Part shown: piece by piece, positions 5,386-28,511 of the stretch
Layout: each line of letters starts with the position of its first letter
Numbering within the stretch: the stretch's first letter is position 1
Source: Poseidonibacter antarcticus
Lineage (GTDB): Bacteria; Campylobacterota; Campylobacteria; Campylobacterales; Arcobacteraceae
DNA length: 64,000 bases
Assembly (NCBI RefSeq): GCF_003667345.1
Contig: NZ_RCWF01000003.1
Coordinates: 186,001 to 250,000, forward strand
Direction of reading: 5' to 3'
The notes under the pieces: generated by a model
The model's input: the letters and a program-made list of their open reading frames with translations, nothing else
What the model was told of the DNA's origin: nothing
Database searches by the model: none
Made by a program: the position numbers and the translations under genes

Positions 5386-5392
5386 GATTGAT

Positions 5393-6538: not shown

Positions 6539-6547
6539 GAATTAATT

Positions 6548-7946: not shown

Positions 7947-7949
7947 TAA

Positions 7950-11196: not shown

Positions 11197-11996
11197 CATT
11201 ATATATTCAAAACTATAGTTCTTACAGAGATGATATAGAAACTATTGATGTAAAAAATGAGTTAAAACAAAAATATAAAATTGATACAAGAAGACAAGAT
11301 AAATTTATTCATTTGGCAGTTTATGGTGGACAATTATTAAAAGAAAAAGTAGAAATAAATAAGGATAATGAACTATATGTAACATCTGGCGTTGGGAATA
11401 TAGATATTATTCAAAAAACAAATACTTATATGTATAAAGAGAATCAAACATTAAAGATTTTTGATTTTATTAATTTATTGGGAAATACTACAAGTTATTA
11501 TATCGCTTCAACATTAGGTATAAAAGGCAAAAGTATCTTCCAAATATCTGATAATTTTACTTATATTAATACCCTTGTTAGTTTATATTCTTCGATTAGG
11601 TCTTCTAAAAAAGATGCTATACTATGTAGTATAGATTTACTTAGTACTCCTGCTGAAATTATGAAAAGGGTGTTAGGTGTCAAAGAAGATTGTAATCTTG
11701 TGAGTAGTGTAAATTATCAAAAATTTTCATTAGAGAAGAGTAATGCTATTGCAAAAGTAGATTTTGATATAATAAGTTATTCTTATAATGAAATAAAAGA
11801 AATTTTATTAAAAAATGATAAAAAAGTTCTTATATCAAGTCGATGTAAAGAGCTTGAATTTGAAAAAGATTTGGCTTATTTTGAAACGATGGGAAGTTAT
11901 GTGGTTAATAATGCAATTAAAAATAAGGATGACTTAGTTTATATTGATTGTTTTAATAATAGATATAGAATGTTAAAAATAGAGAGTTTAAAATGA
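11193..11996 (+). CDS. Degenerate ketosynthase-like protein lacking the catalytic residues
   Basis: A 267-residue protein that aligns loosely with the N-terminal half of ketosynthases: the dimer segment FINLLGNTTSYYIASTLGI corresponds to the stretch before the nucleophile, but where neighbours have TACTSSAN it has QISDNFTYIN, with no Cys, and the two His motifs are missing. It is too short to contain a full condensing domain. It sits between two active ketosynthases with ATGA overlaps on both sides, so a structural or chain-length role next to one of them is likely. The family placement rests on position and faint similarity. Confidence 0.65.
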   Translation: MTLYIQNYSSYRDDIETIDVKNELKQKYKIDTRRQDKFIHLAVYGGQLLKEKVEINKDNELYVTSGVGNIDIIQKTNTYMYKENQTLKIFDFINLLGNTTSYYIASTLGIKGKSIFQISDNFTYINTLVSLYSSIRSSKKDAILCSIDLLSTPAEIMKRVLGVKEDCNLVSSVNYQKFSLEKSNAIAKVDFDIISYSYNEIKEILLKNDKKVLISSRCKELEFEKDLAYFETMGSYVVNNAIKNKDDLVYIDCFNNRYRMLKIESLK

Positions 11997-13087
11997 ATGT
12001 TTATATAAATAATTATGAGTTACTATGCAATGCAGGAGATACTAAAAGTTTGATGGAAGCTATTTATGCCAAAGAATCAGCTATTACTATTACTGAATCA
12101 TATCTTTCTAATGCAAAAGCAGGTTTAGGAATAATGAAATATGATAATATTTATAATGTATTAGATGATATTACTTCAAAGGTTTTAGAAAATTCAAATC
12201 TTGATAATTTTGAAAATACATTACTTATTTTAGGTTCTTCTGTTGGTGGAATGCAAGAGTGTGAAGAAATTTTTTATAGAGAAAAAAGTTATACAAATAT
12301 AAATCCAAATAGGTATTCAATGAATGCTTTAAGTGATTATCTTTCTAAAAAATTTAATTTTTATGATTCTAGGGCAATTTCTACTGCATGCACATCAAGT
12401 GCAAATGCAATGTTATTAGCAAAAAGACTTATCGAAGTTGAAGCTTATGATAATGTATTGGTTATAGGTGCTGATGGAATATGTAGTTCAACAGTTCTTG
12501 GTTTTCATGCATTAAGTGTTCTTTCTGATAAAAAGTGTACTCCTTTTGATAAAAATCGAAATGGAATGAATGTTGCAGAAGCTGTTGCAGTTTTACTTAT
12601 CCAAAATGTTAAAACTGATGATTCTATTGAATTTAAAGGTGCTGGGGCGAGTAGTGATGCATATCATATGACAAATCCAGATCCAAGTGCTTCAGGTGCT
12701 AAAAATTCTATGTCTAATGCTTTAAAAGATGCAGGAATTCAAATAGAAGATATTGATTATGTAAATGCTCATGGAACTGCAACAATTGCAAATGATAATG
12801 TTGAAGCAAAGGCAGTAGAAGAACTTTTTGGAAACAAAACTTATGTTAATTCAACAAAAGCAATTACTGGACATACTTTAGGTGCTGCAGGTGCAGTTGA
12901 AGCTATTGTTTCTTGTGAAGTGATAAAGCATAAAGTAATACCTGCTCAAACTGGATTAAAAGAACTTGATAATCAAAATATAAATGTTTCAAAACAAAGT
13001 GTTAAAATGGATGTCAAAAATATAATTAGTAATTCATTTGCTTTTGGTGGAAATAACACTTCTTTAATATTTGGAGTTTGCAAATGA
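11993..13087 (+). CDS. Beta-ketoacyl-ACP synthase II-type (complete active site)
   Basis: A 364-residue FabF-like ketosynthase, somewhat short (typical 400+) but with all catalytic residues: Cys133 in STACTSSAN, His260 in NAHGTATIAND and His294 in ITGHTLGAAG. It is the second complete condensing enzyme of the operon. Aryl polyene clusters use one ketosynthase paired with a chain length factor for elongation and another for the starter or an accessory step. The following gene encodes a Ketoacyl-synt_2 protein that overlaps it by four bases, so this one is the best candidate for the elongating subunit. Confidence 0.93.
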   Translation: MNVYINNYELLCNAGDTKSLMEAIYAKESAITITESYLSNAKAGLGIMKYDNIYNVLDDITSKVLENSNLDNFENTLLILGSSVGGMQECEEIFYREKSYTNINPNRYSMNALSDYLSKKFNFYDSRAISTACTSSANAMLLAKRLIEVEAYDNVLVIGADGICSSTVLGFHALSVLSDKKCTPFDKNRNGMNVAEAVAVLLIQNVKTDDSIEFKGAGASSDAYHMTNPDPSASGAKNSMSNALKDAGIQIEDIDYVNAHGTATIANDNVEAKAVEELFGNKTYVNSTKAITGHTLGAAGAVEAIVSCEVIKHKVIPAQTGLKELDNQNINVSKQSVKMDVKNIISNSFAFGGNNTSLIFGVCK

Positions 13088-13731
13088 AAAAAGTAGCAAT
13101 AAATATAATTTCTTCAGCAAAAATTTTTGCTGAGAGAAAAATAGAAAATTTAGATGAAAAAAGATTAGTTCCTCATATGATGACTAGAAGAAGATTAACA
13201 AGAAATTCAAAAGTAATGCTTTTTTTAAGTGATAAATGTAATTTTAAAAATGGAAAAATTGTTTATGGAAGTTGTTTTAGTGAGTTGGAAGAGACAGCAA
13301 AAATTGCAAATGCAGTTCTAGAAAAAGAGATGTTATCTCCAACATCTTTTCAAAATAGTGTTTATAATACTGCTCCATCATATTTTTCATTAGTAAATAA
13401 AGATATTGATGAAATTATTACAATATCTTCAGGAATGAAAACATCTCTTGATTCATTAAAAGTAGCAGCACTACAAGCATTAGTTTCAAAAGAGCCAGTC
13501 CTATGTATTTGTGCAGAGTGTATTAATATAAAAAATATTGAACAAATAAACAGATGTACAAAATATCTTGAAGCAGGAGCTGCTATCGTTCTTGAAATTG
13601 CAGAAGATGAAGAAGGTGCACAAGAGATAATGAATTTACCAATTGAAGGGTTAATTGGTTCTTTACAAGATTTAGTAAGTGTAGTTAATATGAATGAAAA
13701 GGGAATTAAAAAAATTCTAATTGAACTTTAA
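13084..13731 (+). CDS. Chain-length-factor-like protein (Ketoacyl-synt_2, ApeC-like)
   Basis: A 215-residue protein of the Ketoacyl-synt_2 type: MTRRRLTRNSKVMLF near residue 34, IVYGSCFSELEETAKI, and SPTSFQNSVYNTAPSYFSL, equivalent to the SPt-F-SVHN-A motif of the family. It has no nucleophilic Cys. In aryl polyene systems the corresponding ApeC partners a ketosynthase and sets polyene length. A TTG at 13078 is in frame, but ATG 13084, sharing ATGA with the preceding ketosynthase stop, is the better start and implies translational coupling of the pair. Confidence 0.85.
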   Translation: MKKVAINIISSAKIFAERKIENLDEKRLVPHMMTRRRLTRNSKVMLFLSDKCNFKNGKIVYGSCFSELEETAKIANAVLEKEMLSPTSFQNSVYNTAPSYFSLVNKDIDEIITISSGMKTSLDSLKVAALQALVSKEPVLCICAECINIKNIEQINRCTKYLEAGAAIVLEIAEDEEGAQEIMNLPIEGLIGSLQDLVSVVNMNEKGIKKILIEL

Positions 13732-13747
13732 AAAAAGGCGGAATAAA

Positions 13748-15262
13748 ATGGTTGTAGATAATAAAATAGTAAATTATGAAGGTTTTTCACATAATGAAGA
13801 AATAGTACTTAGTCAAGAAAAAGAGTTTATTGATTTCATTAATTCAGGACATAACTTTTTAGTTAAACAAATAAGTAGTGGAATACCTATTTATGGAATT
13901 ACAACTGGTTATGGAGAAGCTGGTAGTAATTATGCAGCTTTTGAAGAAGCAGAAGAACTACAAAAAAACCTTTATAGATTTTGTGGAACTGGTGTAGGTG
14001 AAAATTTAAGTGCTGAAGTTTCAAAAATAATGGTAACTGTTAGAATGATAAGTCTTTCAAAAGGGAAAAGTGGAGTTAGTTATGACTTATTAAAAAGATT
14101 TGAAATTTTATTAAGCAATGAAATATATCCAATTATCCCTTCTCAAGGTTCAGTAGGAGCAAGTGGTGATTTAGCTCCTTTATCATATATAGCAGCTGTT
14201 ATTGCAGGTGAAAGAGAAGTTTATTATAAGGGTGAAGAGAGAAAAACTATTGATGTTTATAATGAATTAGGAATTAAGCCTTATGTATTTAAAGCAAAAG
14301 AAGCACTAGCTGTTATAAATGGAACAGCAACAATGAGTTCAATTGCGATTAAATCTATTCAAAGATTTGAACTTTTATTAGAAAGTATGGAAAGTTTTGT
14401 TGCTGCTATATATGAAGTACTACTTTGTGATATTACTCCATTAGAACCATTTGTTCATGAAAGTAAACCATTTTCGGGACAAATAACAACAGCTTCAAAA
14501 ATCTTAGCAAAATGTGAAGATTCAAAATTAATGCATAAAGCTTTTAGTAGATATGAAAAATTCCATTCAGAAAAAGATCAAAATATCCAAGATAGATATT
14601 CTATTAGATGTGCTCCTCAAGTTTTAGGAGTGATAAGAGATAATTTAGAAATTTCTAAGAATTGGATTCAAACAGAAATAAATGGAGTAAATGATAATCC
14701 TTTAATTGATCCAATTGGTGAAAAAATATATACTTCAGGGAATTTTTATGGTGGTTATATTGCACATGCAATGGATACTCTAAGAATTTGTGCTGGTAAT
14801 TTAGCAGATCTTTTAGATAAAGAGTTTGCCTTATTAGTAGATCATAAATTTAATAAAGGTTTAGGGGAAAGTTTAAAACTAAACAAAAAATCTACTCATC
14901 ATGGTTTTAAACTTATGCAAGTTACTCTTAGTTCTTTAAGTGCTGATGTTCTTATGAATACAAATGCTGCTTCTTTATATTCAAGATCAACAGAGTCATT
15001 AAATCAAGATAAAGTAAGTATGGGAACAACAGCTGCTAGAAATTTTAGTAAACAACTTCCCGATTTAGAAAATATGTTAAGTATTGGTTTTTTAGGAATT
15101 GCACAGGCAATTGATATTAGAGGATATGATAAGTGTTCAAAACATCTACAAAAGTGTTACAACGAAATTAGAAAACATGTGACAAAACTAGAAGAAGATA
15201 GAAGACAAGATTTAGATATTAAAATAGTAAATGAACTTTTAAAAGAAGGTAAGTTTGTATGA
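13748..15262 (+). CDS. Aromatic amino acid ammonia-lyase (HAL/TAL/PAL family)
   Basis: A 504-residue MIO enzyme that deaminates an aromatic amino acid to an acrylate, the aryl starter unit. The MIO cofactor triad Ala138-Ser139-Gly140 is in GSVGASGDLAPL and the catalytic Tyr is Tyr49 in IYGITTGYG. The substrate-selectivity pair, aligned on NL-x-R-x-x, is Phe78-Cys79. HAL and the Flavobacterium TAL have Ser-His there and Rhodobacter TAL has His-Leu, so the Phe suggests phenylalanine rather than tyrosine or histidine. ATG 13748 follows AAGGCGG by 7 bases and is preferred over the upstream ATG at 13721, which overlaps the previous gene. Confidence 0.9.
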   Translation: MVVDNKIVNYEGFSHNEEIVLSQEKEFIDFINSGHNFLVKQISSGIPIYGITTGYGEAGSNYAAFEEAEELQKNLYRFCGTGVGENLSAEVSKIMVTVRMISLSKGKSGVSYDLLKRFEILLSNEIYPIIPSQGSVGASGDLAPLSYIAAVIAGEREVYYKGEERKTIDVYNELGIKPYVFKAKEALAVINGTATMSSIAIKSIQRFELLLESMESFVAAIYEVLLCDITPLEPFVHESKPFSGQITTASKILAKCEDSKLMHKAFSRYEKFHSEKDQNIQDRYSIRCAPQVLGVIRDNLEISKNWIQTEINGVNDNPLIDPIGEKIYTSGNFYGGYIAHAMDTLRICAGNLADLLDKEFALLVDHKFNKGLGESLKLNKKSTHHGFKLMQVTLSSLSADVLMNTNAASLYSRSTESLNQDKVSMGTTAARNFSKQLPDLENMLSIGFLGIAQAIDIRGYDKCSKHLQKCYNEIRKHVTKLEEDRRQDLDIKIVNELLKEGKFV

Positions 15263-15951
15263 AAACAGTATTAGTAACTGGTTCTACTGGTGCTATAGGT
15301 GAAGCAATAGCAAGATATTTTCATGAAAATGGATATTTTGTTTATTTACATTATAGAAGTCAAAAAGAAAAAGCACAAGAGTTAAGAAATGAATTAGAAA
15401 ATTCTGAACTTATTGCTTTTGATATCTTAGATAAAAATGATGTATATTCAAAATTAGAAAATCTAGAAATTGATGTTTTAGTAAATAATGCAGGAATTAC
15501 AAAAGATAAATTATTTTTTTGGATGGAAGATGACGATTGGAATGATGTTATTAATACTTCAGTAAATGGTACTTATAATGTAACTAAAGCAGTGATTAAA
15601 AAGATGATAACAAACAAAAAAGGTTCAATAATTAATATTGCTTCGATTTCAGGATTAGTTGGAAATGCCGGTCAAACAAATTATTCAGCTGCAAAAGGTG
15701 CAATAATTGCATTTACAAAAGCTTTAGCAATTGAAGTTGCAAGATATAAAATACGTGTAAATGCTGTAGCTCCTGGATTAATAGAATCAGAAATGACAAA
15801 AGATTTAGATTTAAAAACTATTAAAAAAGATATTCCCCTTAAAAGAATAGGGAAAGCAGATGAAGTGGCTGAATGTGTATTCTTTTTAGGAGATAAAGCC
15901 TCTTATATTACTGCTGAGACTTTAAATATAAGTGGAGGAATGGTTCGGTAG
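15259..15951 (+). CDS. 3-oxoacyl-ACP reductase (FabG/ApeQ-like)
   Basis: A 230-residue short-chain dehydrogenase. The NADPH-binding loop is TGSTGAIG (residues 8-15), the NNAG motif is at 76-79, and the catalytic residues are Ser129, Tyr142 and Lys146 (NYSAAKG). It reduces the beta-keto group after each condensation, before dehydration. It overlaps the ammonia-lyase stop by four bases and abuts the next gene with no gap. It is full length for FabG and is likely dedicated to this cluster, since it sits inside the operon. Confidence 0.95.
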   Translation: MKTVLVTGSTGAIGEAIARYFHENGYFVYLHYRSQKEKAQELRNELENSELIAFDILDKNDVYSKLENLEIDVLVNNAGITKDKLFFWMEDDDWNDVINTSVNGTYNVTKAVIKKMITNKKGSIINIASISGLVGNAGQTNYSAAKGAIIAFTKALAIEVARYKIRVNAVAPGLIESEMTKDLDLKTIKKDIPLKRIGKADEVAECVFFLGDKASYITAETLNISGGMVR

Positions 15952-16494
15952 ATGAAATTTTTAAACATTCTTTTAGCTCCATTATTTGTGGTATTATTAC
16001 ACTATTTTGAGCTTAGAATGGTTATTCTATTATATCTTTGTATGTCAATCATTTTTTTAATTTATAGATTTTTTAAAAGAAAAACTTATAAGGATATTTT
16101 GTTACCAAGTATGTATATAATAGCTTTTAGTATTGCTTATCATTTTTCATCATTACAAACTGTAAAATATATACCTGTAATTTTATCAACGATATTTTTA
16201 TTTTTATTTGTAGATTCTCATTTTAATAAAAAATATATGATACTAAATTTTACAAAAAAGTTTTATAGGAAAAAATTAAAAGAAGAGGAAATCAAGTTTT
16301 TAGAAAATGGTGATGATTATTGGATTGTTGTTATGTTAATTAATACTATAATTCATTTATATATTGTTAATTTTTCAAGTAATGAAATATGGGCTTTTTA
16401 TTCTTCTATTGGTTGGTATATTTTATTTTTTATATCATTAATTATTCAAATTATTTATGGGAAAACATATGCTGTTAAAATGTATACTAGGTAG
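15952..16494 (+). CDS. Small integral membrane protein (COG4648-like) of aryl polyene clusters
   Basis: A 180-residue protein with about six hydrophobic helices (roughly 3-20, 22-40, 50-66, 73-88, 124-142 and 148-170) and a basic cytosolic loop near residues 92-115. Aryl polyene clusters regularly encode a COG4648-type membrane protein in this position, next to the lysophospholipid-type acyltransferase; I place it there from context and topology. Its function is not known. It starts directly after the ketoreductase stop and its 3' end overlaps the acyltransferase gene. Confidence 0.7.
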   Translation: MKFLNILLAPLFVVLLHYFELRMVILLYLCMSIIFLIYRFFKRKTYKDILLPSMYIIAFSIAYHFSSLQTVKYIPVILSTIFLFLFVDSHFNKKYMILNFTKKFYRKKLKEEEIKFLENGDDYWIVVMLINTIIHLYIVNFSSNEIWAFYSSIGWYILFFISLIIQIIYGKTYAVKMYTR

Positions 16495-17209
16495 TATTGG
16501 TCACTTTATTTTTTTTGGTTTAATTACTGTTATGATTATTCCGGGTTATATTGTATATCTTATATCAAAACTTTTTGTTAAAGAACCGCAATATGTATTT
16601 CAATCAGGAGCTTCACTTTCTTATAAATTGTTTTTTATTTTTGCACCTAATATTGTATTAAAACCAGATTTATTGGATGAAATACCAGAAGGTGCAATTT
16701 TTATTTCTACTCATCAATCAATTTTAGATTTCCCTGCACTTGCAACTTTTATAAAAAAATATTTAATCTTTGCTAATGTAAATTTAGCTAAATATCCTAT
16801 GATTGCTAAAATATCACACTTAGCAGGAGTTAGATATATAAAAGGAAGACAGTTACCTGAGCTTAGTGAAATATTCAAAGAGATTGAAACACATCTTGAT
16901 GAAGGTAAAAACGTAATTTACTTTGCTGAAGGAACAAGACATGAAGGTGATACTTTATTACCTTTTAAAAGAGGTGCTTTTAAATTAGCAATGAAAAAGA
17001 ATAAACCTATAATTCCTATTGTAATTGAAGGAGCTTATAGATTACTTCCAAGAAAAAGTTTTTGTTTTAAAACAGATAAAAAAGTGAATATTCATATGAA
17101 AATGCTTAAGCCTTTATATCCAAAAGATTTTTCAAGTGATATAGAAATGAAAGATTATGCCCAAAAAATTATGCAAGAGGAAAAAACAAGATTATGCGAT
17201 TTATCTTAA
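16469..17209 (+). CDS. PlsC-type lysophospholipid acyltransferase
   Basis: An LPLAT-family acyltransferase of about 246 residues, with an N-terminal membrane helix (~8-34), the catalytic His82-x4-Asp87 in STHQSILDF, the VRYIKGR block, and FAEGTRHEG, the second acyltransferase signature. It would transfer an acyl, perhaps the aryl polyene, from ACP to a glycerol or sugar acceptor to anchor the pigment in the membrane. ATG 16457 is also possible, but ATG 16469 has GGGAAA at proper distance. It overlaps both neighbours. Confidence 0.88.
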   Translation: MLLKCILGSIGHFIFFGLITVMIIPGYIVYLISKLFVKEPQYVFQSGASLSYKLFFIFAPNIVLKPDLLDEIPEGAIFISTHQSILDFPALATFIKKYLIFANVNLAKYPMIAKISHLAGVRYIKGRQLPELSEIFKEIETHLDEGKNVIYFAEGTRHEGDTLLPFKRGAFKLAMKKNKPIIPIVIEGAYRLLPRKSFCFKTDKKVNIHMKMLKPLYPKDFSSDIEMKDYAQKIMQEEKTRLCDLS

Positions 17210-17670
17210 TATTATTTATTCAATTGACACTCTATGCACAAAACTATAATTTTGATGAGATAAAATATATTTCAGCAGTTTCTCATGAGTTCAAGAAAAG
17301 TGGTAATATTAATATAGAAGAAGAAAAAACTATAATCACTTATTCTAAGCCTTCTTTTAAAGAAATTATCAAGGATAATGAAAATGTTTCAATAAAAGAT
17401 TCTTCTGGAAAAATATATAAATTAAAAGGTAGAGCAAAAGTTTTTACACAACAGTTTATTGATATTATGACAAGACTTGGAAATATAGATGAGATGAAAA
17501 CTAATAAAGATTTTGATGTCAAAAAAGAAGATAATCTATATTATATTACTTTTTTAGAAGATATTTCAAATCAAATAAAAAATGCAGAAGTTAAAGTAAA
17601 AAATTCAAAAGTGATAAGTTTTAAAATGTTCTTACCAAATGAAGATACAATAGAAATAATTAAAAAATGA
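17194..17670 (+). CDS. LolA-like periplasmic carrier protein
   Basis: A 158-residue protein with an N-terminal signal peptide (MRFILILFIQLTLYAQ, cut near residue 16) and a LolA-like fold: the early YISAVSHEFKKSGNINIEEEKTIITY strand pair, KPSFKEIIKDNENVSI, and late K-x-F-LPNEDTIEI. In aryl polyene clusters a LolA-like protein probably accepts the lipidic pigment from the inner-membrane exporter and moves it across the periplasm. It overlaps the acyltransferase by 16 bases and the MMPL exporter by four. Confidence 0.8.
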   Translation: MRFILILFIQLTLYAQNYNFDEIKYISAVSHEFKKSGNINIEEEKTIITYSKPSFKEIIKDNENVSIKDSSGKIYKLKGRAKVFTQQFIDIMTRLGNIDEMKTNKDFDVKKEDNLYYITFLEDISNQIKNAEVKVKNSKVISFKMFLPNEDTIEIIKK

Positions 17671-19742
17671 AATATATAAATTTCTTTATTTTTGTAGTAT
17701 TATTAACATTATACATATTATTCTCTTCAAATATAAGATTTTCAACAAATTTTTTAGATATTTTTCTTTCACAAAATAGTATTAAACTATTTGATATTGC
17801 CAAAAAGTTTGGATACTCAAATGAAATACTTATTTCAAAGAAAGGTTTTAATAAAAAATCTTTGCAAGAATTAAATGAAATATCTAATAAATTAAAAGCA
17901 TTACCTGAAATATCAGAAGCTAGTATATCTATTGAAATTTCAAAAGATATGAGAGAGTATTTAATAAAAAATTATTTTTTATTAGCAGATTTTAATAATC
18001 AAAAAATTTCAAAAAATGATGTTTTAGAAAAATTAGAAGAGATACGTAAAAAAATAAATATTTCCGTAATCTATGAACCTATAAATTCTTATGATCCTTT
18101 AGGCTTATTTACTATGGATGAGACTGATAATGAAAGATATTTTAAATTAAAAGATTATGGCTATGTATTAAAAGCTAAAACTACTATTAACACATCAAAT
18201 GCAAACGAAAGTAAGATAGTATATAAGAAAATAAATCAAATCTTAAAAAATTATGATGAGATTATTGCCTTTGCTCCATTTTTCTATCTTGTGGAAAACT
18301 CATCATATATAAAAAATGATGCTCAAATTATAATGCTTTGTTCTAGTATATTATTATTAATACTATATTTCTTTGTATTAAAAAACAAAAAGCTTTTTTT
18401 TAATACAGTTTTTACAATAGCTAGTTCAATTTTAGGTGCAATTTTATTAAGCTTATTACTTTTTGATGAGATAAATATTTTAGCTTTAGTTTTTGGTATT
18501 AGTATTACTACTATCTCTATTGACTATATGTTTCATTATTATTTTCATAATGAATTTATAAAAAGAAAATTTATAACACAAAAGTCTGTTATATATGGAT
18601 TCTTAACAACTTTTGGTGTTTTTATTATTTTTAGTTTTATTGATATTGAACTATTTTCACAACTTGCAATATTTAGTGCAATATCTCTTTTCATTTCCTT
18701 TTTTCTTTTTTCTTGGCTTTATATATATTTGGAGATTCCTCCTGTAAATATTAAAGGAGAGAATAAAAAAATAAAGAGTTTAAACCCCTTATATATTTTT
18801 CTAATATCGAGTTTAATGTTAATTTATGTATACAATAATTTAAGTTTTGACAATAATCTAAAAAATCTTGATTATCAAAATGAGAAGCTAATTAAAATAT
18901 CAGAAAAATTTAAAGAAGGTTTTTATAATAATAAATATCAAAGTCTTTTAATAAGTGCAAAAGATAAAGAAACTCTTCTTCAAAGATATGAAGAATCGGC
19001 ACTTTTATATCCAGGTATTTTAGGTATAGGAAAGTATTTATATAGTTTAAAGAAATGTAACAAAAGGTTAGAAAAAATTAAAGAATATAATTTTGGAGAA
19101 GTAAAAAAATATTTAAATGAAGCATCAAAAGAACTAGGATTTAATAATATTTTTAAAAATGCTTACCCTAAGATAAATAATTTGAAATGTGATATGAGTT
19201 ACATTGATAATATAAACTTCAAGATAATTAAAAATGAAAATACATATTATACAATGGCTTTTGTAGATAAAAAATACAAAATAAAAGATAGTGGAAATAT
19301 TAAAGTAATAAATTTAGGAAAGAGTTTATCATCTGATACAGAAAAAATGAAAAATACTTTAATTAAATATATGTTGATTTCTACAGTATTTATTATTTTA
19401 GTTCTTTTTATACTTGCAAAATCAAAAATATTATATCCCTTGTCTTATATGATATTCCCAATTAGTTCTGTACTTTTTGTTATTTCTTTATTAGGAATGA
19501 TTAATATTATGCATATATTTGCTTTAGTTATATTGTTAGCTATTGGTATAGATTACGGTATTTATATGTATAAAACTACAAACAAAGTTAAAACTAGTAT
19601 GGCAATAAGATATGCTTTACTTAGTACTTTTTCTGGTTTTGGAGTACTTATTTTTAGTAGTACAGTAGCTTTATATTCAATTGGTTTAGTAATAACAATA
19701 GGAATTATTTCAGTTTTTTTCTTACTTTATTTTAGTTTGTAA
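17667..19742 (+). CDS. MMPL/RND-family exporter of the pigment cluster
   Basis: A 691-residue membrane protein with two repeats, each one N-terminal helix, a large periplasmic loop and then a bundle of helices (first bundle from ~residue 218, second from ~560): the MMPL layout. Charged residues inside the helices (IDYMFHYYF in the first, IDYGIYMY in the second) fit a proton relay. It is slightly shorter than the usual 750-800 of ApeM-like exporters. It likely passes the aryl polyene lipid to the LolA-like protein encoded just upstream. A 37-base gap with AGGAG precedes the next gene. Confidence 0.85.
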   Translation: MKYINFFIFVVLLTLYILFSSNIRFSTNFLDIFLSQNSIKLFDIAKKFGYSNEILISKKGFNKKSLQELNEISNKLKALPEISEASISIEISKDMREYLIKNYFLLADFNNQKISKNDVLEKLEEIRKKINISVIYEPINSYDPLGLFTMDETDNERYFKLKDYGYVLKAKTTINTSNANESKIVYKKINQILKNYDEIIAFAPFFYLVENSSYIKNDAQIIMLCSSILLLILYFFVLKNKKLFFNTVFTIASSILGAILLSLLLFDEINILALVFGISITTISIDYMFHYYFHNEFIKRKFITQKSVIYGFLTTFGVFIIFSFIDIELFSQLAIFSAISLFISFFLFSWLYIYLEIPPVNIKGENKKIKSLNPLYIFLISSLMLIYVYNNLSFDNNLKNLDYQNEKLIKISEKFKEGFYNNKYQSLLISAKDKETLLQRYEESALLYPGILGIGKYLYSLKKCNKRLEKIKEYNFGEVKKYLNEASKELGFNNIFKNAYPKINNLKCDMSYIDNINFKIIKNENTYYTMAFVDKKYKIKDSGNIKVINLGKSLSSDTEKMKNTLIKYMLISTVFIILVLFILAKSKILYPLSYMIFPISSVLFVISLLGMINIMHIFALVILLAIGIDYGIYMYKTTNKVKTSMAIRYALLSTFSGFGVLIFSSTVALYSIGLVITIGIISVFFLLYFSL

Positions 19743-19779
19743 AAAATATGATAAAATTAAATAATTATTAGGAGTAAGA

Positions 19780-20928
19780 ATGAAAATATACGATATGGAT
19801 AAAAAGTGTTATATTGAGGTACAAAAGATTGATAATGCAAGTTCCAAAATTGAGCAATTATCAGATGCACTTTATTGTTTTGAAAATGGGATATTTTCTA
19901 TAATTTATGATAAATCACAACCATTTTTAGTTGAGTATATTAAATCTTTAGATCAAAGTATTTTACATCAAGAAGATATGCAGTTCTTATATTTTACTTC
20001 AGGTACAACAGGAACACCAACTGGCGTTTATAAGAAAAGAGAAAACTCATTAAAACAATCCGATGCATTATTAAAAACTATAAAAGATGGGAAGTTTAAT
20101 AGAGTTGTTACTACTGTTCCTTTTGTTCATATTTATGGAGTTGATATTGGAGCAATTGTTCCTATGCAATTAGATATTGATATTTGGGTAAAGGAAAACT
20201 TTTTACCTGAAGAATTAGCGATTGAAGCTGAAAAGGAAGGTACTTTAATTGTTACTACTCCTGTTTTTATTAAAGCATTAAATAGAATAAAAAAAGATGT
20301 AAAATTTCCTAAAAGTTTGTTTTTAACATCTACATCACCTTTACCACTAGAAGATGCAATAGAATTTCATAAACATTATGATTGTTCTGTAATGCAACTT
20401 TTTGCTTCTACTGAAACAGGATTAATGGGATATAGAAAAGATAATGAAGAAATATTAACAGCATATGATGGTGTTAGTATTGGTGAAAAAGATGGTATGC
20501 TTAATATCTCTTCTGATTTAGTTACTTCTAGAATTTTAAGTAAGGGAGTAATAAAAGATGTTGAACAACCTTTTCAGACTGAAGATATAGTTGAAATTTA
20601 TAAAGAAGGAAAATTTAAATTATTAGGACGTAGTTCTAATTTAATAAAAATTGCAGGAAAACGAATATCAACACAACAAATTGAAACTATTATTGAATCT
20701 ATAGATGAAATTGATGCAGTTTTAATAAAAGTTAGAAGAGATGATAGAGCTCTTAAAGATGAGATTTTAGATATATATGTAGAATCTAAAGTTAATCTCG
20801 AATCAAAAAAACTTAGAAGCCTTTTTAAATCATATTTTGGTTCAATAAATATTGCTTATAAGATACATAATAATATTAAAGTAACTAGAAGCTCAGTTGG
20901 TAAGAAGATTGGTTTTAAAGAGATATAA
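19780..20928 (+). CDS. Acyl-ACP synthetase (AMP-forming ligase, ApeH-like), short form
   Basis: A 382-residue AMP-binding enzyme. The P-loop-like motif YFTSGTTGTPTGVYKK is at ~71-86, ATP-site STETGLMGYR follows at ~208, and the C-terminal catalytic Lys is in SSVGKKIGF. It would load the cinnamate-type acid from the ammonia-lyase onto ACP. Only about 70 residues come before the P-loop, where family members usually have 120-180, so the N-terminal subdomain is reduced; the same is seen in several aryl polyene ligases, from memory. Its last bases are followed within eight bases by the second ACP. Confidence 0.85.
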   Translation: MKIYDMDKKCYIEVQKIDNASSKIEQLSDALYCFENGIFSIIYDKSQPFLVEYIKSLDQSILHQEDMQFLYFTSGTTGTPTGVYKKRENSLKQSDALLKTIKDGKFNRVVTTVPFVHIYGVDIGAIVPMQLDIDIWVKENFLPEELAIEAEKEGTLIVTTPVFIKALNRIKKDVKFPKSLFLTSTSPLPLEDAIEFHKHYDCSVMQLFASTETGLMGYRKDNEEILTAYDGVSIGEKDGMLNISSDLVTSRILSKGVIKDVEQPFQTEDIVEIYKEGKFKLLGRSSNLIKIAGKRISTQQIETIIESIDEIDAVLIKVRRDDRALKDEILDIYVESKVNLESKKLRSLFKSYFGSINIAYKIHNNIKVTRSSVGKKIGFKEI

Positions 20929-20935
20929 TGTTACA

Positions 20936-21214
20936 ATGCAAGAAAAATTATTGGAGAGAATATTGGTAACAACTACTGAATTAAAAGAAAAAATTATATT
21001 AGGACTTGATTTAGAAGATTTAAGTGTAGATGAAATTGCTGATGATATGCCATTATTTGGTGATGATGGATTAGGACTTGATAGTGTTGATGCAATAGAA
21101 ATAACTCTTATTTTAGAAAAAGAATTTGGAGTAAAAGTAAAAAATGTTGAAGAATCAGCTAATATTTTTGCTACACCAGAAACTTTAGTTAAATATATTA
21201 ATGAGAATAAATAA
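20936..21214 (+). CDS. Acyl carrier protein (second of two)
   Basis: A 92-residue acidic ACP with the phosphopantetheine Ser50 in GLGLDSVDAIEI. Its neighbour on the 5' side is the acyl-ACP synthetase and on the 3' side the dehydratase, so this ACP is a good candidate for receiving the aryl starter. An upstream in-frame TTG (20897) lies within the ligase gene; ATG 20936, eight bases after the ligase stop, is chosen because the protein then begins at a normal ACP helix I. Confidence 0.92.
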   Translation: MQEKLLERILVTTTELKEKIILGLDLEDLSVDEIADDMPLFGDDGLGLDSVDAIEITLILEKEFGVKVKNVEESANIFATPETLVKYINENK

Positions 21215-21228
21215 AAATTAAAACTAAA

Positions 21229-21588
21229 ATGTCTGATTTTCCAATTCCTCATATTGCACCTATTCGTTTTGTTAAATCACTTAACGGTGCTGATTTTACT
21301 AGTGCATCTGTTAATATCGAATTTGAATATATACCAACTTTAGGTATGTTAATTGAAGCAGCTACACAAAGTTCATCAGGAGTTTTGGATAAACACAAGA
21401 GTGATTCAAATATGGGTTTTCTTGTAACTGTTAAAAATGTAAAACTTCTCCAAAAACTTAAATCAAAAGAGTTTATTGTAAATATTTTACTTGATAATAA
21501 ATTGGGAAATTTTAAATATTTTTCATTTAATGTAGTTGATAATGAAGAAATTGTTGCTACAGGAATATTTTCAATAGCAGTACAATAA
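21229..21588 (+). CDS. Hot-dog 3-hydroxyacyl-ACP dehydratase (ApeP-like)
   Basis: A 119-residue hot-dog protein. The N-terminal PIPHIAPIRFVKSL corresponds to the LPH-x-x-P-x-x-x-x-D element of ApeP dehydratases, with the catalytic His, and IPTLGMLIEAATQSSSG is the central helix that carries the acidic catalytic residue (Glu44). It is the last gene of the pigment operon and the second dehydratase; the first is at 3430-3723. ApeI and ApeP in Xenorhabdus work on the same pathway. A hairpin terminator begins at its stop codon. Confidence 0.85.
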   Translation: MSDFPIPHIAPIRFVKSLNGADFTSASVNIEFEYIPTLGMLIEAATQSSSGVLDKHKSDSNMGFLVTVKNVKLLQKLKSKEFIVNILLDNKLGNFKYFSFNVVDNEEIVATGIFSIAVQ

Positions 21589-21625: not shown

Positions 21626-22564
21626 TTATTTTCTAATAAGTTGAGTATCACCCATCATCGCTTGATCATATGGATTAGCTAACCAATTAGCAACGTCTTT
21701 ACCTAATGCAGATGCTATTCTGTTTAATACAGAACAAGATGTTCTATATACTCCAAAATATCCACCACCCGATAATCTTGCTGCATTAAAAGTATAATAT
21801 TTTTTATTTCCTTTTATAATAGCACCTGAAATAGTTACAAATTTATTATGTCCAACTGCTGCATTACCTGAACTTATAGCTTGTTCAATTTGAACATCAA
21901 GTTTTAGTTCATTAGATGTTATATTATTTTTGATAACAACATTTAGACCATTACTTTTGGCATATTTTACAATACTTTGACTAAGAGATTTTTGTAGAGT
22001 ACATTCACTTTTTATATTTTGTGCAACTCTAGAGTTTGGAGCAAAACGAACATAAGGTTTAATATAAATTATTTTACCTTCTAAATTTAAATCGCCACCT
22101 TTTTTATAAGATTTACTTGCTGTAGATACTGTTGTAGTTGTCGATTGGTTTGTTGCATTGCTCATTCCTAAACTTTCTAATTGAAAGTTTATATTATCTT
22201 GAAGAATTTTAACCCATTTATTATAACTTCCATGGATTTCATTTGTTTGTGGATTGTATTTTAAATTTCTACTTTTGTTATAACTTATAGTATAACCTTT
22301 TGAAGTATAATCTATATTCACAGATACAAAATATTTACTTCTAACAAGTATATTAGCTTGAATAAGTCCATTTCTTATTTTTCTTGTTTGCCAACCTTTA
22401 TTTGCTGCACCATTTTTAATAGCTCTTTCAATTTTTGCTTTTGCTTTATTTACCGAAAAAAAGTTTGAGTTATCAAATGTTTGTACTGTATTAATTCTTC
22501 CACAAGCCGTAAACAATCCAATAATAAGCAACATTAATAAACAATTTCTTTTTAAATTTTTCAT
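21626..22564 (-). CDS. Putative outer-membrane lipoprotein, unknown function
   Basis: A 312-residue protein with a lipoprotein signal: a basic start, a hydrophobic stretch, and LFTAC with lipid-accepting Cys21 (the Phe at -3 is unusual). Two soluble parts follow: residues ~40-125, with AIKNGAANKGW and IHGSYNKWVKILQDNI, resemble a small repeat domain of Gram-negative lipoproteins; residues ~150-312 form an unrecognised domain (YVRFAPNSRVAQNIKSEC). It has its own promoter and a hairpin leader upstream. A TTG at 22570 is in frame, but ATG 22564 has AAGGGA at the right distance. No functional call. Confidence 0.75.
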   Translation of the reverse strand: MKNLKRNCLLMLLIIGLFTACGRINTVQTFDNSNFFSVNKAKAKIERAIKNGAANKGWQTRKIRNGLIQANILVRSKYFVSVNIDYTSKGYTISYNKSRNLKYNPQTNEIHGSYNKWVKILQDNINFQLESLGMSNATNQSTTTTVSTASKSYKKGGDLNLEGKIIYIKPYVRFAPNSRVAQNIKSECTLQKSLSQSIVKYAKSNGLNVVIKNNITSNELKLDVQIEQAISSGNAAVGHNKFVTISGAIIKGNKKYYTFNAARLSGGGYFGVYRTSCSVLNRIASALGKDVANWLANPYDQAMMGDTQLIRK

Positions 22565-22591
22565 ATACAATTCCCTTTTTTATTTAAATAA

Positions 22592-22704: not shown

Positions 22705-22830
22705 TTATTTCTTCAAAATAAATTTTTTGAACTTTTGAAAAAAAGAAGCATTTTTCTTTTTTTCAAGTTTTGTTCTAACTTCAAAAGCTAAAAATTTTAA
22801 TTTTTTAGGTTCGTGTAGATATTCTTTCAT
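22705..22830 (-). CDS. Small basic protein (41 aa) coupled to the MotB-like gene
   Basis: A 41-codon ORF whose ATG (22830-22828) overlaps the stop of the MotB-like gene in the ATGA arrangement, the mark of translational coupling. The product is very basic (more than ten Lys, few acidic residues), begins MKEYLHEPKKLKFLAFEV and ends FKKFILKK, and has no membrane helix or signal. I do not recognise a family. The coupling to the MotB-like gene is the main argument that it is expressed, and it may be part of the same complex or bind nucleic acid or the membrane. It is too short for most gene callers. Confidence 0.55.
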   Translation of the reverse strand: MKEYLHEPKKLKFLAFEVRTKLEKKKNASFFQKFKKFILKK

Positions 22831-24062
22831 TTATTATTTCCCTTCTTATCTCCTAAAAAGTTTTGAAGTTCCTTTATTGCATTTTCATTTTTGACTGTAA
22901 ATTTGATTTCAATTCTTCTTGAATTATCTTTATCTTCTACACCATTTTTATAAATAAGATTTGAAAAAGACCTTCCACTTGAATTAACATATTTACTAAT
23001 TAGATTTTTATCTACAATATTTGATTCATATAAAAACTGCATAACTTCTAAGGCTCTTTTTTGTGAAAGTTGTAAGTTACTTAGGTATGAACCATCACTA
23101 TTTGTATGTCCTTCTATTGTGATACTTTGAATATATTTTCTAATATTCTTATCTTTAAGTAGAGCATTTAGGTATTTTTCTAAAATTAAGCTAAGTTCTT
23201 TTTTTGATTCTTCTTTTATTTTATATTCACCTTGATCAAATAAAATATTTGAAGAAAATTTAATAGCTCCACTTTTTTCATCAATATTAATTAATTTTCC
23301 AAGTTTTTCTCTAAGTTGTGAGATTACATTTAATTTAATTCCTGTTAAATGTTTGATTTTTAATTTTGTAATATCAAACTCTTCTACAAGTTTTTGATGT
23401 TCATTACTTTGAGTTAAAAGTTTCTTTTGAAGCATTGCTAGTTCTTCATCTTTTAAAGTAATTGTATTTTTTCTATTTTTAAGTTGGGTATTTAGACTAG
23501 CATTTTGTTCTTCATACTCTTTTGTTTTAACTTCAAAGCCTAATAATAATGCTTTTAGTTTTTCCATTTCATCTGATTTTAGAGCTAAAACTTCTGTTTT
23601 TTCTTTAATAATAGTTTCTTTATTTTCTAAAATAGCAGTGATCTTTTCAATTTGTTCTAAAGATAGTGCTAAATCAGAACTTTTTTTATTTAAAATATCT
23701 GATAACTCTTTTGATTGTTCTTTTTGTTTTTCTAATTCATCTTTTGTTTTATCAAACATATTTTGAGATTTTGCTAGTTTAAATGCTAAATGAACTTTTT
23801 CATCTTGTAGTGTTTTTACTTTTTCATTTATTTCATCAATTTTTTTCTTTTTATTTGAAAGCTCTTCTTCACTTAAATTTAGTGCAAGTTTTTCTTTTTC
23901 TAAATCTGTTTTAATTACTTGTAAATCATTTTGTGTATATAAATATTTGATAATGATTGCACCAATTACAAGAATAAATACAAAAAGCAAACCAGCCATT
24001 AAATCTGCATAAGATATCCAAAAGTTTTCATCGCTATTATTGTTTTGTTCTTTATTATACAT
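22827..24062 (-). CDS. MotB/OmpA-like stator protein with long coiled coil
   Basis: A 411-residue protein: one membrane helix near residues 16-40 that starts with ISYADLMAGLLFVF, in which Asp20 is the position of the proton-carrying Asp of MotB/ZorB; a coiled coil over about 45-225 (heptad-rich K/E/L); and a C-terminal OmpA peptidoglycan-binding domain (EGHTNSDGSYLSNLQLSQKRA, then DNSRRIEIKF). It pairs with the MotA-like gene six bases upstream. MotB and ZorB are usually shorter between helix and OmpA domain, so the long coiled coil is unusual. It is not a flagellar motB by context. Confidence 0.85.
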   Translation of the reverse strand: MYNKEQNNNSDENFWISYADLMAGLLFVFILVIGAIIIKYLYTQNDLQVIKTDLEKEKLALNLSEEELSNKKKKIDEINEKVKTLQDEKVHLAFKLAKSQNMFDKTKDELEKQKEQSKELSDILNKKSSDLALSLEQIEKITAILENKETIIKEKTEVLALKSDEMEKLKALLLGFEVKTKEYEEQNASLNTQLKNRKNTITLKDEELAMLQKKLLTQSNEHQKLVEEFDITKLKIKHLTGIKLNVISQLREKLGKLINIDEKSGAIKFSSNILFDQGEYKIKEESKKELSLILEKYLNALLKDKNIRKYIQSITIEGHTNSDGSYLSNLQLSQKRALEVMQFLYESNIVDKNLISKYVNSSGRSFSNLIYKNGVEDKDNSRRIEIKFTVKNENAIKELQNFLGDKKGNNK

Positions 24063-24068
24063 CTAAGC

Positions 24069-25289
24069 CTACTTAGAAAGTTCTTTGAACTCTTGTAAAT
24101 CTTCTATTATTTTAACAGTTTGCTCATCAATTGATTCTAAAGAATTTGTTAGTCTTTGACTAAATTTTGAATCATATTCATCTAATTCTTTATGAAACTT
24201 CCATCCAATCTTATCTGTTTCGTTTTTCATAGTTTCAATACTTTGTATGATATTAAGATATATTTCTTGTAAATTTTTAGCACTTAAATTATCCAAAGTC
24301 TTACTTAGGTTTCCAATATTTTTATTTAAATCTTGTGTACTTGTTTGGTGTAGTTGTTTTTGAACTTCAAAGCTTGCAATAGATGAACTAATACTTAAAG
24401 TCATTGTTTTTATATTATCTGATAACTCTTCATTATTTCTGATATTTTGAGAAATACTTGAAGATAATTCAGTTTCTTTTTCCAAAATATCTTCAAGTAT
24501 AGAAACTCTTTTTTCTATTGATTCATTGATATTGTCCAAAATATCTTTTGATGTAATTTGCTCAAAAATATCAGTCATTCTTTTGAAATTTTCAAGATTA
24601 TTTTTGATATTTATTGATTCAATATCAATCTTTGTCCAAAAGAATGATTTTGTATTTTCTCTAATAATTAAACAATCATGCTCAAACCTACTCATTCCAA
24701 TTTTTTCAAAGAAAGTCCACCATAAAGATAAAAAAATACCATAAATAGAAACATAAAAAGCAGTACCAACTCCACCTAATAAAAGTGAAATCTCTTTTTC
24801 TAAAGCACTAGAAGTACCAGAAGAAAAGTCAGGCATACTATAAGCAATTGAGATAAAAGTACCCAAAATACCAAGTGTAGGAAATACACCAGATGCAATA
24901 GATGAAAAATTTGTATTCCTAATATTGCTAGTATAATCTTTCAAAAAGTCATCAGCACTACCATTTGCTTTTGTAGTATCACCAATTGCAAGAAGATTTG
25001 CATTGATATAGTTTTTTAAATTAAAAATCAATTCTTGATATTGAGTTTTAAACTTACAAGAAACATAATAAGCATTATGTTTTATAAAAAATAAGTAAAT
25101 AAAATAAATAAAGCCAATCAAAATAACACTATGAATCTCAACTTTTAAAGGAAAAAGTTCTAAATAACCTAAAATAATTAAAGCAAATAAAAATGTAGGA
25201 ATAGTAAGAAGATTAAATATCCGAGCTACTGGTCTACAAGTAGTATAAAATTTTGAGTTTAAATCTATAAAGTCTTCGTTTGTTAACAT
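24069..25289 (-). CDS. MotA/TolQ/ExbB-like proton channel protein with C-terminal tail
   Basis: A 406-residue protein. Membrane helices lie at about 25-45, 55-70, 135-155 (GVFPTLGILGTFISIAYSM) and 170-195 (LLLGGVGTAFYVSIYGIFLS); these last two match the MotA/TolQ channel helices. From ~225 to the end runs a cytoplasmic, coiled-coil-rich tail of 180 residues. Zorya ZorA proteins also have such a tail, unlike flagellar MotA. With the next gene it should form a proton-driven 5:2-type stator, by family knowledge. AAGGGA precedes the ATG by eight bases. Confidence 0.85.
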   Translation of the reverse strand: MLTNEDFIDLNSKFYTTCRPVARIFNLLTIPTFLFALIILGYLELFPLKVEIHSVILIGFIYFIYLFFIKHNAYYVSCKFKTQYQELIFNLKNYINANLLAIGDTTKANGSADDFLKDYTSNIRNTNFSSIASGVFPTLGILGTFISIAYSMPDFSSGTSSALEKEISLLLGGVGTAFYVSIYGIFLSLWWTFFEKIGMSRFEHDCLIIRENTKSFFWTKIDIESINIKNNLENFKRMTDIFEQITSKDILDNINESIEKRVSILEDILEKETELSSSISQNIRNNEELSDNIKTMTLSISSSIASFEVQKQLHQTSTQDLNKNIGNLSKTLDNLSAKNLQEIYLNIIQSIETMKNETDKIGWKFHKELDEYDSKFSQRLTNSLESIDEQTVKIIEDLQEFKELSK

Positions 25290-25497: not shown

Positions 25498-26295
25498 TTA
25501 TATTGATGAATCAATATGTATAAAATTATTTGCTCTAAATTCAGTTAAGCTACCATACGTATATTTATCAACTATTTTCATCATTTCTTTCCATCCTGAT
25601 TCGCCATAATAATAGAATTTAAATTTTGATTGAATGTTATCAATTGATCTTTGATTAATATAGTCTTCAAAATATGAGCTGTCTGTTATTCCAATTGAGT
25701 GACCAAAAATTATAATCTCATTTTCTCGATTAAATTCTTTTTTTATATTATGTTTCCCATAATTTTTATTATAAGCTTTTTTTAAGAAAATATGTTCTTC
25801 ATCACCTATTCTTGCCTTATCCTCTACACCAAAAATAATATCTTTTCCTTCTATTGACCCATGAATATAGCAATGTTTATTTTCTATATTTTGAATATTT
25901 AAAATTTCTGAAACTTTAAATACTGAATTTGTATAGTTAAAGTTAAAAATAGTATCTACCTTATCAATCTCTTTTTTTAATATTTCAAATGCTTTTGAAT
26001 CTTGATTTATATCTTTTTCTTGTGCTTCTTTTAAATAATTCATTAAAGATAATCTTATTTCATTAAAATTATCTTCTATATCTAAGTTTTTATTTTTAAC
26101 TTTTATTGAATAGTTAGTTAATTCATTTTCAATATCAACCCAATTATTTAATTCATTTTTTTCATTAAAATATTCAGCCATATTATTTTTTTTTGCAACT
26201 AAATCTTTAAAATGTTCACTTTGAATAAAATCTTTGTAACTTGTCTTAAGACCTAAGTTCAAATCAAATCCATTACCTATAATTAATATTTTCAT
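25498..26295 (-). CDS. AbiH-family protein (abortive-infection family)
   Basis: A 265-residue protein that starts MKILIIGNGFDLNLGLKTSYKDF, the N-terminal signature of the AbiH family (PF14253): G-N-G-F-D-x-x-x-x-x-x-T-S-Y. Other conserved parts are FNFNYTN near the middle, HGSIEGKDIIFGVED, and IIIFGHSIGITDSSYF in the C-terminal half. AbiH of Lactococcus blocks phage by an unknown abortive mechanism; many chromosomal members have no shown role. It is transcribed towards the MotA/MotB-like genes with a 208-base gap and is divergent from recQ. ATG 26295 fits AGGA at five bases better than ATG 26301. Confidence 0.82.
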   Translation of the reverse strand: MKILIIGNGFDLNLGLKTSYKDFIQSEHFKDLVAKKNNMAEYFNEKNELNNWVDIENELTNYSIKVKNKNLDIEDNFNEIRLSLMNYLKEAQEKDINQDSKAFEILKKEIDKVDTIFNFNYTNSVFKVSEILNIQNIENKHCYIHGSIEGKDIIFGVEDKARIGDEEHIFLKKAYNKNYGKHNIKKEFNRENEIIIFGHSIGITDSSYFEDYINQRSIDNIQSKFKFYYYGESGWKEMMKIVDKYTYGSLTEFRANNFIHIDSSI

Positions 26296-26393
26296 TTTCA
26301 TCCTAATATTTAAGTGGTAGAATATTATATAGAAATTTAAAATAAAATAGTTAATAAAATACTAAATTAATAAATACACACCTAACCCAAGAT

Positions 26394-28511
26394 ATGCTAA
26401 AATCAAAAATGAATAAAAAACAACAAATCCTAAAAGAAACATTCGGACATGACAACTTTCGTTCTTTTCAAGAAGAAGTAGTTGATGACATATTAAAAAA
26501 GCAAGATGTACTTACAATCCTTCCAACAGGTGGTGGAAAATCACTTTGTTATCAATTACCTGCATTACTTATGGATGGTGTTACAGTTGTAATCTCTCCT
26601 CTTATTGCACTTATGCAAGATCAAGTAAAAGCTTTAAATGACCTTGAGATTAGTGCTTCAATGATAAGTTCTTCACAAACAAATGATGAAAACTCTTTTA
26701 CTATGCAAAAACTTCTAGCAGGTGAGTTAAAGTTTGTATATGTTGCACCTGAGCGATTTACTTCAAATGAGTTTGTAAGTGTATTACAACGTATAAATAT
26801 TAACTATTTTGTAATAGATGAAGCTCACTGTGTATCTGGATGGGGTCATGAGTTTAGAGCGGAATATAGAAACTTAAATAGACTAAAACAGTTTTTCCCT
26901 GATACTTGTATTGCTGCGTTTACTGCGACTGCTACAAAAAGAGTTGAAGCAGATATTGCCTCTTCACTTAATCTTGTAAATGCAAAACATTATAGAGCAA
27001 AAACACAAAGAGATAATCTTGAAATAAAAGTCGAACCTCGTATTTCAAATGGAAAATCACAAATATTAAACTTTCTAAAATCACATAAGGGCTTATGTGG
27101 AATTATATATACATTTACAAGAAAAGAAGCAGAATCAACAGCTAAGTTTTTATGTGACAATGGATATAAGTCAAAAGCATATCACGCAGGATTAAGTGCA
27201 AGTGTTAAAGATGAGGTATTTAATGACTTTGTATATGAAAACGTGGATATAGTAGTTGCTACTATTGCATTTGGTATGGGAATAGATAAATCAAATATTA
27301 GATTTGTTATACATACAAGCTTACCAAAAACCTTAGAAAACTATTATCAAGAAATAGGACGAGCAGGAAGAGATGGTGCTATGTCTTATGTATATTTACT
27401 TTACTCAAAAGGTGATGAGGTAAAAAGAAAACTTCAAATAGAAGATGCAATTGATAATTCATATAAACAAACAGGACTTGATAAGCTAGAAGCTATGTAT
27501 AGATACTGTGTTTCAAATAACTGTAGGCATAAAATCATAGCTGCTTATTTTGAAGATGAGATTGATGATTGTGCTACTTTATGTGATAACTGTACTAAAG
27601 GTGAAGTTGTACAAGTTGATGTAAGTGTAGATGCTCAAAAGTTCTTAAGTGCTGTATATAGAAGTGAACAACGCTTTGGTACAAATCATATTATAGATAT
27701 ATTAAGAGGTTCAAAAAATCAAAAGCTTTTAGAGTTTGGACATGATAAACTAAAAGTATATGGTTTAGGACATGATAAAAGTAAAAATGAATGGGTAGCA
27801 ATAGCAGATAAACTAATAGATATACAAGCTGTTAATTTAGGTGAATATAGAGTATTAAAACTAAACTCTCTTGGAATGGAAATATTAAAAGGAAATGAAA
27901 AGCTTTTAATTGATGAAGATAAATTAGGAATTGCTGTAAAACAAGAAGAATCACAAGAAGTACTATCTTTTGATGAAGAACTATATGAAAAGTTTAGAAA
28001 CTTACGAAGACAAATGGCACTTGAATATGAAGTTCCAGCTTATGTAATATTTGGAGATAAAACCTTAAAAGAGTTTAGCTCAAAGTTACCAATTACAAAA
28101 GAAGAGATGTTAGATATAAATGGAGTAGGGCTTGTTAAGTTTGATAAGTATGGAGAAAAGTTTTTAAATCTTTGTATTGAGATAAAAGAAGAGTTTAAAG
28201 AAAAGATTGAAACAAGAGTACCTTTAAAAAAATTGACAAAAACATATTTAGAAACGTATGAGTTAATACAAGAAGGAAATAGTTTAAATGATATTGCTAT
28301 GAAAAGAGATTTAGGACTTACAAGTATATTATCTCATCTTACAGTATTAAGCGAACACGAAAAAATATCACCTTTAAAAAAAGAAGAGTTACTTAAACCC
28401 TTAGAAATACCAAATGATATAAAACAATGGATAGAAAAAGGTTTGGAGTATGAAACTATGCAAGAGTTAAGACAGCATTTGTATTTATATGATTTTTTGA
28501 AAAAAATGTAA
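26394..28511 (+). CDS. recQ: ATP-dependent DNA helicase RecQ
   Basis: A 705-residue superfamily 2 helicase. Walker A TGGGKS is at 45-50, DEAH at 142-145, the aromatic-rich loop follows in HEFRAEYRNL, and motif VI is in YYQEIGRAGRDG. A zinc-binding domain (CRHKIIAAYFEDE and CATLCDNC), a winged helix region and an HRDC domain (~520-595) follow. Residues ~610-705 add an HTH_40-like C-terminal module (TYELIQEGNSLNDIAMKRDLG), so it is longer than E. coli RecQ (609). It unwinds DNA in recombination repair. A methyltransferase gene follows after 11 bases. Confidence 0.96.
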   Translation: MLKSKMNKKQQILKETFGHDNFRSFQEEVVDDILKKQDVLTILPTGGGKSLCYQLPALLMDGVTVVISPLIALMQDQVKALNDLEISASMISSSQTNDENSFTMQKLLAGELKFVYVAPERFTSNEFVSVLQRININYFVIDEAHCVSGWGHEFRAEYRNLNRLKQFFPDTCIAAFTATATKRVEADIASSLNLVNAKHYRAKTQRDNLEIKVEPRISNGKSQILNFLKSHKGLCGIIYTFTRKEAESTAKFLCDNGYKSKAYHAGLSASVKDEVFNDFVYENVDIVVATIAFGMGIDKSNIRFVIHTSLPKTLENYYQEIGRAGRDGAMSYVYLLYSKGDEVKRKLQIEDAIDNSYKQTGLDKLEAMYRYCVSNNCRHKIIAAYFEDEIDDCATLCDNCTKGEVVQVDVSVDAQKFLSAVYRSEQRFGTNHIIDILRGSKNQKLLEFGHDKLKVYGLGHDKSKNEWVAIADKLIDIQAVNLGEYRVLKLNSLGMEILKGNEKLLIDEDKLGIAVKQEESQEVLSFDEELYEKFRNLRRQMALEYEVPAYVIFGDKTLKEFSSKLPITKEEMLDINGVGLVKFDKYGEKFLNLCIEIKEEFKEKIETRVPLKKLTKTYLETYELIQEGNSLNDIAMKRDLGLTSILSHLTVLSEHEKISPLKKEELLKPLEIPNDIKQWIEKGLEYETMQELRQHLYLYDFLKKM

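Follow-up and report, generated by a model that had tools for sequence, protein, structure and literature searches.

The window, a stretch of 64,000 nucleotides from a Poseidonibacter antarcticus contig, carries on its minus strand three tightly packed genes transcribed in the order A, B and small ORF. Gene A (24069–25289; 406 residues) encodes a MotA/ExbB/ZorA-like channel subunit, recognized by a PF01618 MotA_ExbB domain match (3.5e-6) that exceeds the Pfam curated cut-off and by its likeness to ZorA structures. Gene B (22827–24062; 411 residues) follows after a 6-nt gap and encodes a MotB/ZorB-like subunit with one transmembrane segment, a helical stalk and a C-terminal OmpA domain. The third gene (22705–22830) encodes a Lys-rich protein of 41 residues and its ATG overlaps the stop codon of B (ATGA).

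The AlphaFold model of A (mean pLDDT 79.6) comprises a MotA-type four-helix core followed by a C-terminal helical tail spanning residues 219–404, which bears out the long coiled-coil tail claimed in an earlier note on this DNA and is predicted to be cytoplasmic. A MotA-type torque domain is absent from the predicted fold. PDB searches, Foldseek and VIA-align each returned ZorA (8qyd, 8vvn and 8vvi) as the nearest solved structures. The VIA-align Z values of 11.2 against 8vvi (rmsd 2.5 over 98 residues), 10.5 against 8vvn (rmsd 3.8 over 181 residues) and about 9 for the core against TolQ and ExbB are informative through their ranking rather than their size, since middling Z values come easily with helical proteins.

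The channel Asp and OmpA domain that the same note had claimed for B are both present. The transmembrane segment FWISYADLMAGLLFVFI contains Asp20, which is invariant in 24 of 24 relatives, and a Pfam search placed the OmpA domain (PF00691, 9e-13) at residues 274–380. The core residues of A are as strictly kept as Asp20, the channel residues being invariant. In the AlphaFold model of B (mean pLDDT 80.1), two long helices (residues 10–152 and 163–254) lie between the membrane and the OmpA domain, so that the extra coiled coil proposed earlier is indeed there, but it measures about 200 residues rather than the suggested 180 or so. The stalk varies in length among relatives, in which B ranges from 313 to 494 residues. 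PDB and fold searches identified ZorB (8vvn, 8vvi and 8qyd) as the nearest solved structure, and the MotB_plug model scored 17.3 bits against a Pfam cut-off of 24. The pair has the features of the 5:2 motor superfamily (MotAB/TolQR/ExbBD/ZorAB), with a MotA_ExbB domain in A and a single transmembrane segment bearing a conserved Asp in B, and its closest relatives by sequence and structure are ZorA and ZorB.

The small third gene and its history

The tiny Lys-rich protein starting on the B stop codon, as the earlier note had described it, carries a net charge of +10 in the window, and a Shine–Dalgarno-like AAGGG lies about 10 nt upstream of its start, within the 3′ end of B. No Pfam, NCBIfam or PADLOC family matched the window protein, 19 relatives gave scattered weak Pfam matches only, and no transmembrane segment is evident. 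We searched other genomes for the same three-gene order and found it in many of them, with the small ORF conserved. The ORFs that follow B in these relatives have 38–68 codons, start anywhere from 52 nt ahead of the B stop codon to a few nt beyond it, and share a common build. A [YF]xPxxL motif close to the N-terminus is followed by a charged linker, which differs in length from one ORF to another, and by a C-terminal segment that is basic. The window protein has HEPKKL at the motif, with His replacing the Tyr/Phe as in its two nearest relatives, and a basic FFxK C-terminal segment; examples of the basic segment are SFFQKFKKFILKK, TFFQKFIDLLKRVF and GFLSKLLDMLK. The amphipathicity of these segments usually lies above that of shuffled versions, with modest values of which many are individually non-significant. 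In several distant relatives the net charge is merely +1 to +6, compared with +10 in the window.

The small ORF is a real gene under purifying selection. Its pN/pS ranged from 0.12 to 0.62 in 16 close pairs, mostly somewhat above the values for A and B, and conservation and selection act on all three genes. A hidden Markov model trained on Arcobacteraceae small proteins alone and run on 25,964 six-frame peptides returned, next best after the Arcobacteraceae loci, ORFs located directly after B in loci L084 (E-value 0.001), L104 (0.0024) and L088 (0.0079), which belong to other families; the L088 match was repeated in its second copy, L124. With all members included in the model, every match past the inclusion threshold sits after a B gene. 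Recurrence directly after B across the phylum and purifying selection take the small ORF beyond chance and, along with the held-out model, rule out a fortuitous reading frame.

We found the small gene after B in 27 of the 48 loci of the A-family tree, whereas 18 lack it and three are unclear (L152, L155 and L156). Where present, it always follows B directly, amid differing genomic surroundings; the loci without it showed neither a fusion to A or B nor a relocation elsewhere in the sequence searched. The tree divides into two deep clades that each hold positive and negative loci, implying a minimum of two changes. As the small proteins of both clades are alike, one ancestral gene followed by several losses is the simplest reading, two separate gains being a less simple alternative. 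The Campylobacter family and one Arcobacteraceae clade retain the pair but lack the small gene; the persistence of the motor in whole lineages devoid of the small protein points to a modulatory or lineage-specific role and speaks against a sole effector. In one further Aliarcobacter locus (L076; A. cryaerophilus gv. crypticus), ATA replaces the small-gene ATG and the rest of the frame is intact, which reflects either a non-standard start or a recent loss.

From gene coupling we infer that the small protein interacts with A and B as a subunit. The ORF could instead encode a peptide with membrane activity or a regulatory task that travels on the same transcript and is no subunit; it might act, for example, on translation, on membrane stress or on some target unrelated to the motor. 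Its small size, basic character and amphipathic C-terminal segment would suit such a peptide, as would its absence from many lineages that keep A and B. Against this, the start stays within 52 nt of the B stop across different surroundings and the gene was never found away from B in the loci searched, and we regard this alternative as unlikely.

Chromosomal setting and relation to Zorya

The A family occurs in 148 of the 298 genomes searched from the phylum, with one copy each, a count that includes one genome (G082) whose gene is a Zorya A and not a family member. It is near-universal in the Campylobacter family, which we identified by PEB4 synteny (132 of 150 genomes) and in which the gene order is PEB4–Fba–A–B–PLP enzyme; the PEB4-like protein of one such locus (L089) matched C. 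jejuni cell-binding factor 2 (PDB 3rfw) at 7e-99. Within Arcobacteraceae the family is distributed patchily, with matches in 37 of 100 relatives; the pair is absent from many genera and from a genome of the same genus as the window (G003). This patchiness is also compatible with an accessory role. A scan of genome contigs with strict peptide patterns returned Campylobacterota-like records only. Plasmids, phages and viral contigs yielded no copies of the pair and one weak, distant plasmid match, a pair of Spirosoma genes with an HNH endonuclease gene behind it, which looks like Zorya II.

The neighbors of the pair in relatives are core genes, namely RecQ, a 2-hydroxyacid dehydrogenase and prpB/prpC-like genes, or PEB4 and Fba in Campylobacter, and this core metabolic setting rules out a defense island. 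A close relative (L077) has the order RecQ–A–B–small gene–2-hydroxyacid dehydrogenase, and the window keeps this order except for two inserted segments, AbiH at one flank and, at the opposite flank, a polyene-like biosynthetic cluster of about 18 kb. The cluster (3430–21588) separates the motor operon from the gene that comes after the operon in relatives, in the manner of an insertion, and includes genes for a FabA-like protein, two ketosynthases, an aromatic amino acid lyase, FabG, an AMP-binding protein, an acyl carrier protein and a BtrH_N/DUF4872 protein; it resembles an aryl-polyene-type pathway in its predicted gene content. Downstream and on the same strand, a gene at 21626–22570 encodes a putative lipoprotein of 314 residues without a family match. 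It is preceded by a good sigma-70-like promoter (22672–22643), and relatives do not keep it next to the pair.

The AbiH gene noted earlier upstream on the same strand is confirmed at 25498–26301 (minus strand; PF14253, 6.3e-27), but its suggested link to the pair does not hold and we place it outside the system. The nearest relatives (L077 and L061) have no AbiH gene beside the pair. In Poseidonibacter lekithochrous (L108) it occupies the same place with 96.3% DNA identity to the window copy, compared with 77.1% for A, 79.3% for B and 85.4% for RecQ. This contrast and the absence from the nearest relatives indicate that AbiH moved or was exchanged separately, and they exclude it as a partner of the pair. 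A terminator scan between AbiH and A found none, which weighs neither way on co-transcription. AbiH appears here as a recent transfer or exchange of a single defense gene between core genes.

The earlier description of a Zorya-like MotA/MotB pair lacking ZorC/D or ZorE agrees with our searches. PADLOC matched ZorB1 (9e-55) and ZorA2 (6.5e-13), and both proteins fell below the NCBIfam curated cut-offs (39 bits against 100 for ZorA_2 and 74 bits against 400 for ZorB1). ZorC, ZorD and ZorE were found neither among the window neighbors scanned nor recurrently in relatives; this negative covers these three effectors rather than ZorF and ZorG (type III). Among 100 relatives, ZorC occurs only in G082, a Campylobacterota genome that has a complete Zorya type I locus (ZorA-B-C-D; L107) and lacks the family studied here, and ZorC was found in no searched genome holding the pair. 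In a tree of channel domains, the A family forms a compact, slowly evolving group at a large distance from the phylum's own Zorya A proteins, whose exact attachment is uncertain owing to long branches.

The defense reading put forward earlier is not borne out. It would make the locus a minimal anti-phage system in which phage entry is detected by a ZorAB-like motor and either the small basic protein or some effector from another locus acts on DNA or the membrane. The kinship with ZorA/ZorB by structure and PADLOC, the AbiH gene next door and the strongly basic small protein speak for it. Yet the pair is chromosomal, single-copy and flanked by housekeeping genes, and nearly all genomes of the Campylobacter family have it; our searches found it on no plasmid or phage and found no Zorya effectors, AbiH moved independently, and whole lineages retain the motor without the small gene. 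We consider a minimal anti-phage system quite improbable. Many Campylobacterota genomes match ZorB models through the envelope pair; homology to ZorA/ZorB alone does not, therefore, amount to phage defense, and ZorAB-only matches should not be counted as Zorya.

Other ZorAB-like pairs occur in the phylum. The genome of the window has a second, short ZorA2-like/ZorB-like pair (L167; contig C16, about 25547–26820; 212 and 207 residues) adjoining a UG17-type reverse transcriptase gene and other apparent accessory genes, which is possibly a real defense locus. Two Helicobacter-like genomes (L171 and L172) carry a different ZorAB-like pair beside ExbB/ExbD, with an A protein of 883–890 residues that has a very long tail and a B protein of 248–265 residues; in L171, PEB4 and Fba come directly after this pair, at the place that the studied family occupies in Campylobacter.

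Most host lineages are flagellated and the topology of B is MotB-like, so the pair could be conceived as an auxiliary stator or an accessory of the polar flagellar motor. However, the genome of the window holds its own separate MotA/MotB (L178), A has no predicted torque domain and its fold ranks ZorA, ExbB and TolQ over PomA, and no flagellar genes occur among the scanned neighbors, as had been claimed; we hold a flagellar role to be very improbable. TonB and Tol genes, likewise as claimed, are missing from these neighbors. A degenerate Zorya system that has lost its effectors, suggested by the sequence and structural kinship with ZorAB, is barely credible given the slow evolution of the A family, its distance from same-phylum Zorya A proteins, its invariant channel residues and the implausibility of effector loss in all lineages with the motor conserved.

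A proposed envelope motor and its relation to known systems

On balance, we consider it probable that the locus encodes an ion-driven, peptidoglycan-anchored envelope motor, an old chromosomal pair of Campylobacterota to which, in many lineages, a translationally coupled microprotein adds a third subunit, and that it does not serve defense. We take homologous motors as a mechanistic model (PMC11890865, PMC9389320). By analogy with them, five A subunits would ring a B dimer held in place by the grip of the B OmpA domains on peptidoglycan, ion flow past Asp20 would drive rotation of the A ring, and a cytoplasmic rod would be built from the A tails. The microprotein is predicted to be cytoplasmic; the part containing [YF]xPxxL may dock on the motor and the basic C-terminal segment may rest on the inner membrane, as expected of an assembly or regulatory subunit. 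This build appears to fit the stator-driven effector imagined earlier no better than it fits a membrane-peripheral subunit or regulator. The motor probably works in maintaining or sensing the envelope, and phage defense is the less likely output.

A more specific version of the envelope motor, in which a dedicated microprotein serves as third subunit and, from the cytoplasmic side of the inner membrane, carries or gates the output, is tentative and in our judgment doubtful. To our knowledge, no output coupling of the microprotein type is known for MotAB, TolQR, ExbBD or ZorAB. An envelope motor of this kind would add one more ion-driven machine to the few whose roles have been established, and would do so in a phylum to which a major food-borne pathogen belongs; our analysis also names a conserved microprotein that stands apart from the families in the three collections searched.

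The pair is likely orthologous to C. jejuni Cj0598–Cj0599, numbers that we derive from gene order rather than from a direct sequence look-up: in the order PEB4–Fba–A–B, cj0596 is PEB4 (PMC2782263) and cj0597 is named an aldolase (PMC3229698), which makes Cj0598 the most likely counterpart of A, and Cj0599 that of B. Cj0598 is entered as hypothetical in one listing (PMC5841378), and we found no report on the function of either protein among the open-licence literature. The Cj0598–Cj0599 pair belongs to the same A/B family in the same setting; unlike the window locus, it has no small third gene after B, and the PLP-enzyme gene comes next.

TolQR and ExbBD share the MotA_ExbB proton-channel superfamily with the pair, whereas the C-terminal domain of B is of the OmpA and not the ExbD/TolR type and no TolA/TonB partner lies nearby; the genome of the window has separate ExbB/TolQ genes. 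Flagellar MotAB has the same MotB-like order of transmembrane segment, linker and OmpA domain with a channel Asp, and differs from the pair in the sub-threshold MotB_plug match, the lack of a predicted torque domain and the non-flagellar neighbors described above. The Zorya ZorAB motors (E. coli type I, 8qyd; Shewanella type I, 8vvn; Sulfuricurvum type II, 8vvi), whose architecture has been described (PMC11890865), combine the same MotA-type channel subunit bearing a cytoplasmic helical tail with the same MotB-type subunit bearing a channel Asp and a peptidoglycan-binding OmpA domain. Unlike them, the pair described here is chromosomal and single-copy, scores under the NCBIfam Zorya cut-offs, comes without ZorC/D/E, and has a helical stalk of about 200 residues in B and a coupled small basic gene. 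By analogy, the pair would work like ZorAB at the level of the motor, yet it is not a Zorya system.
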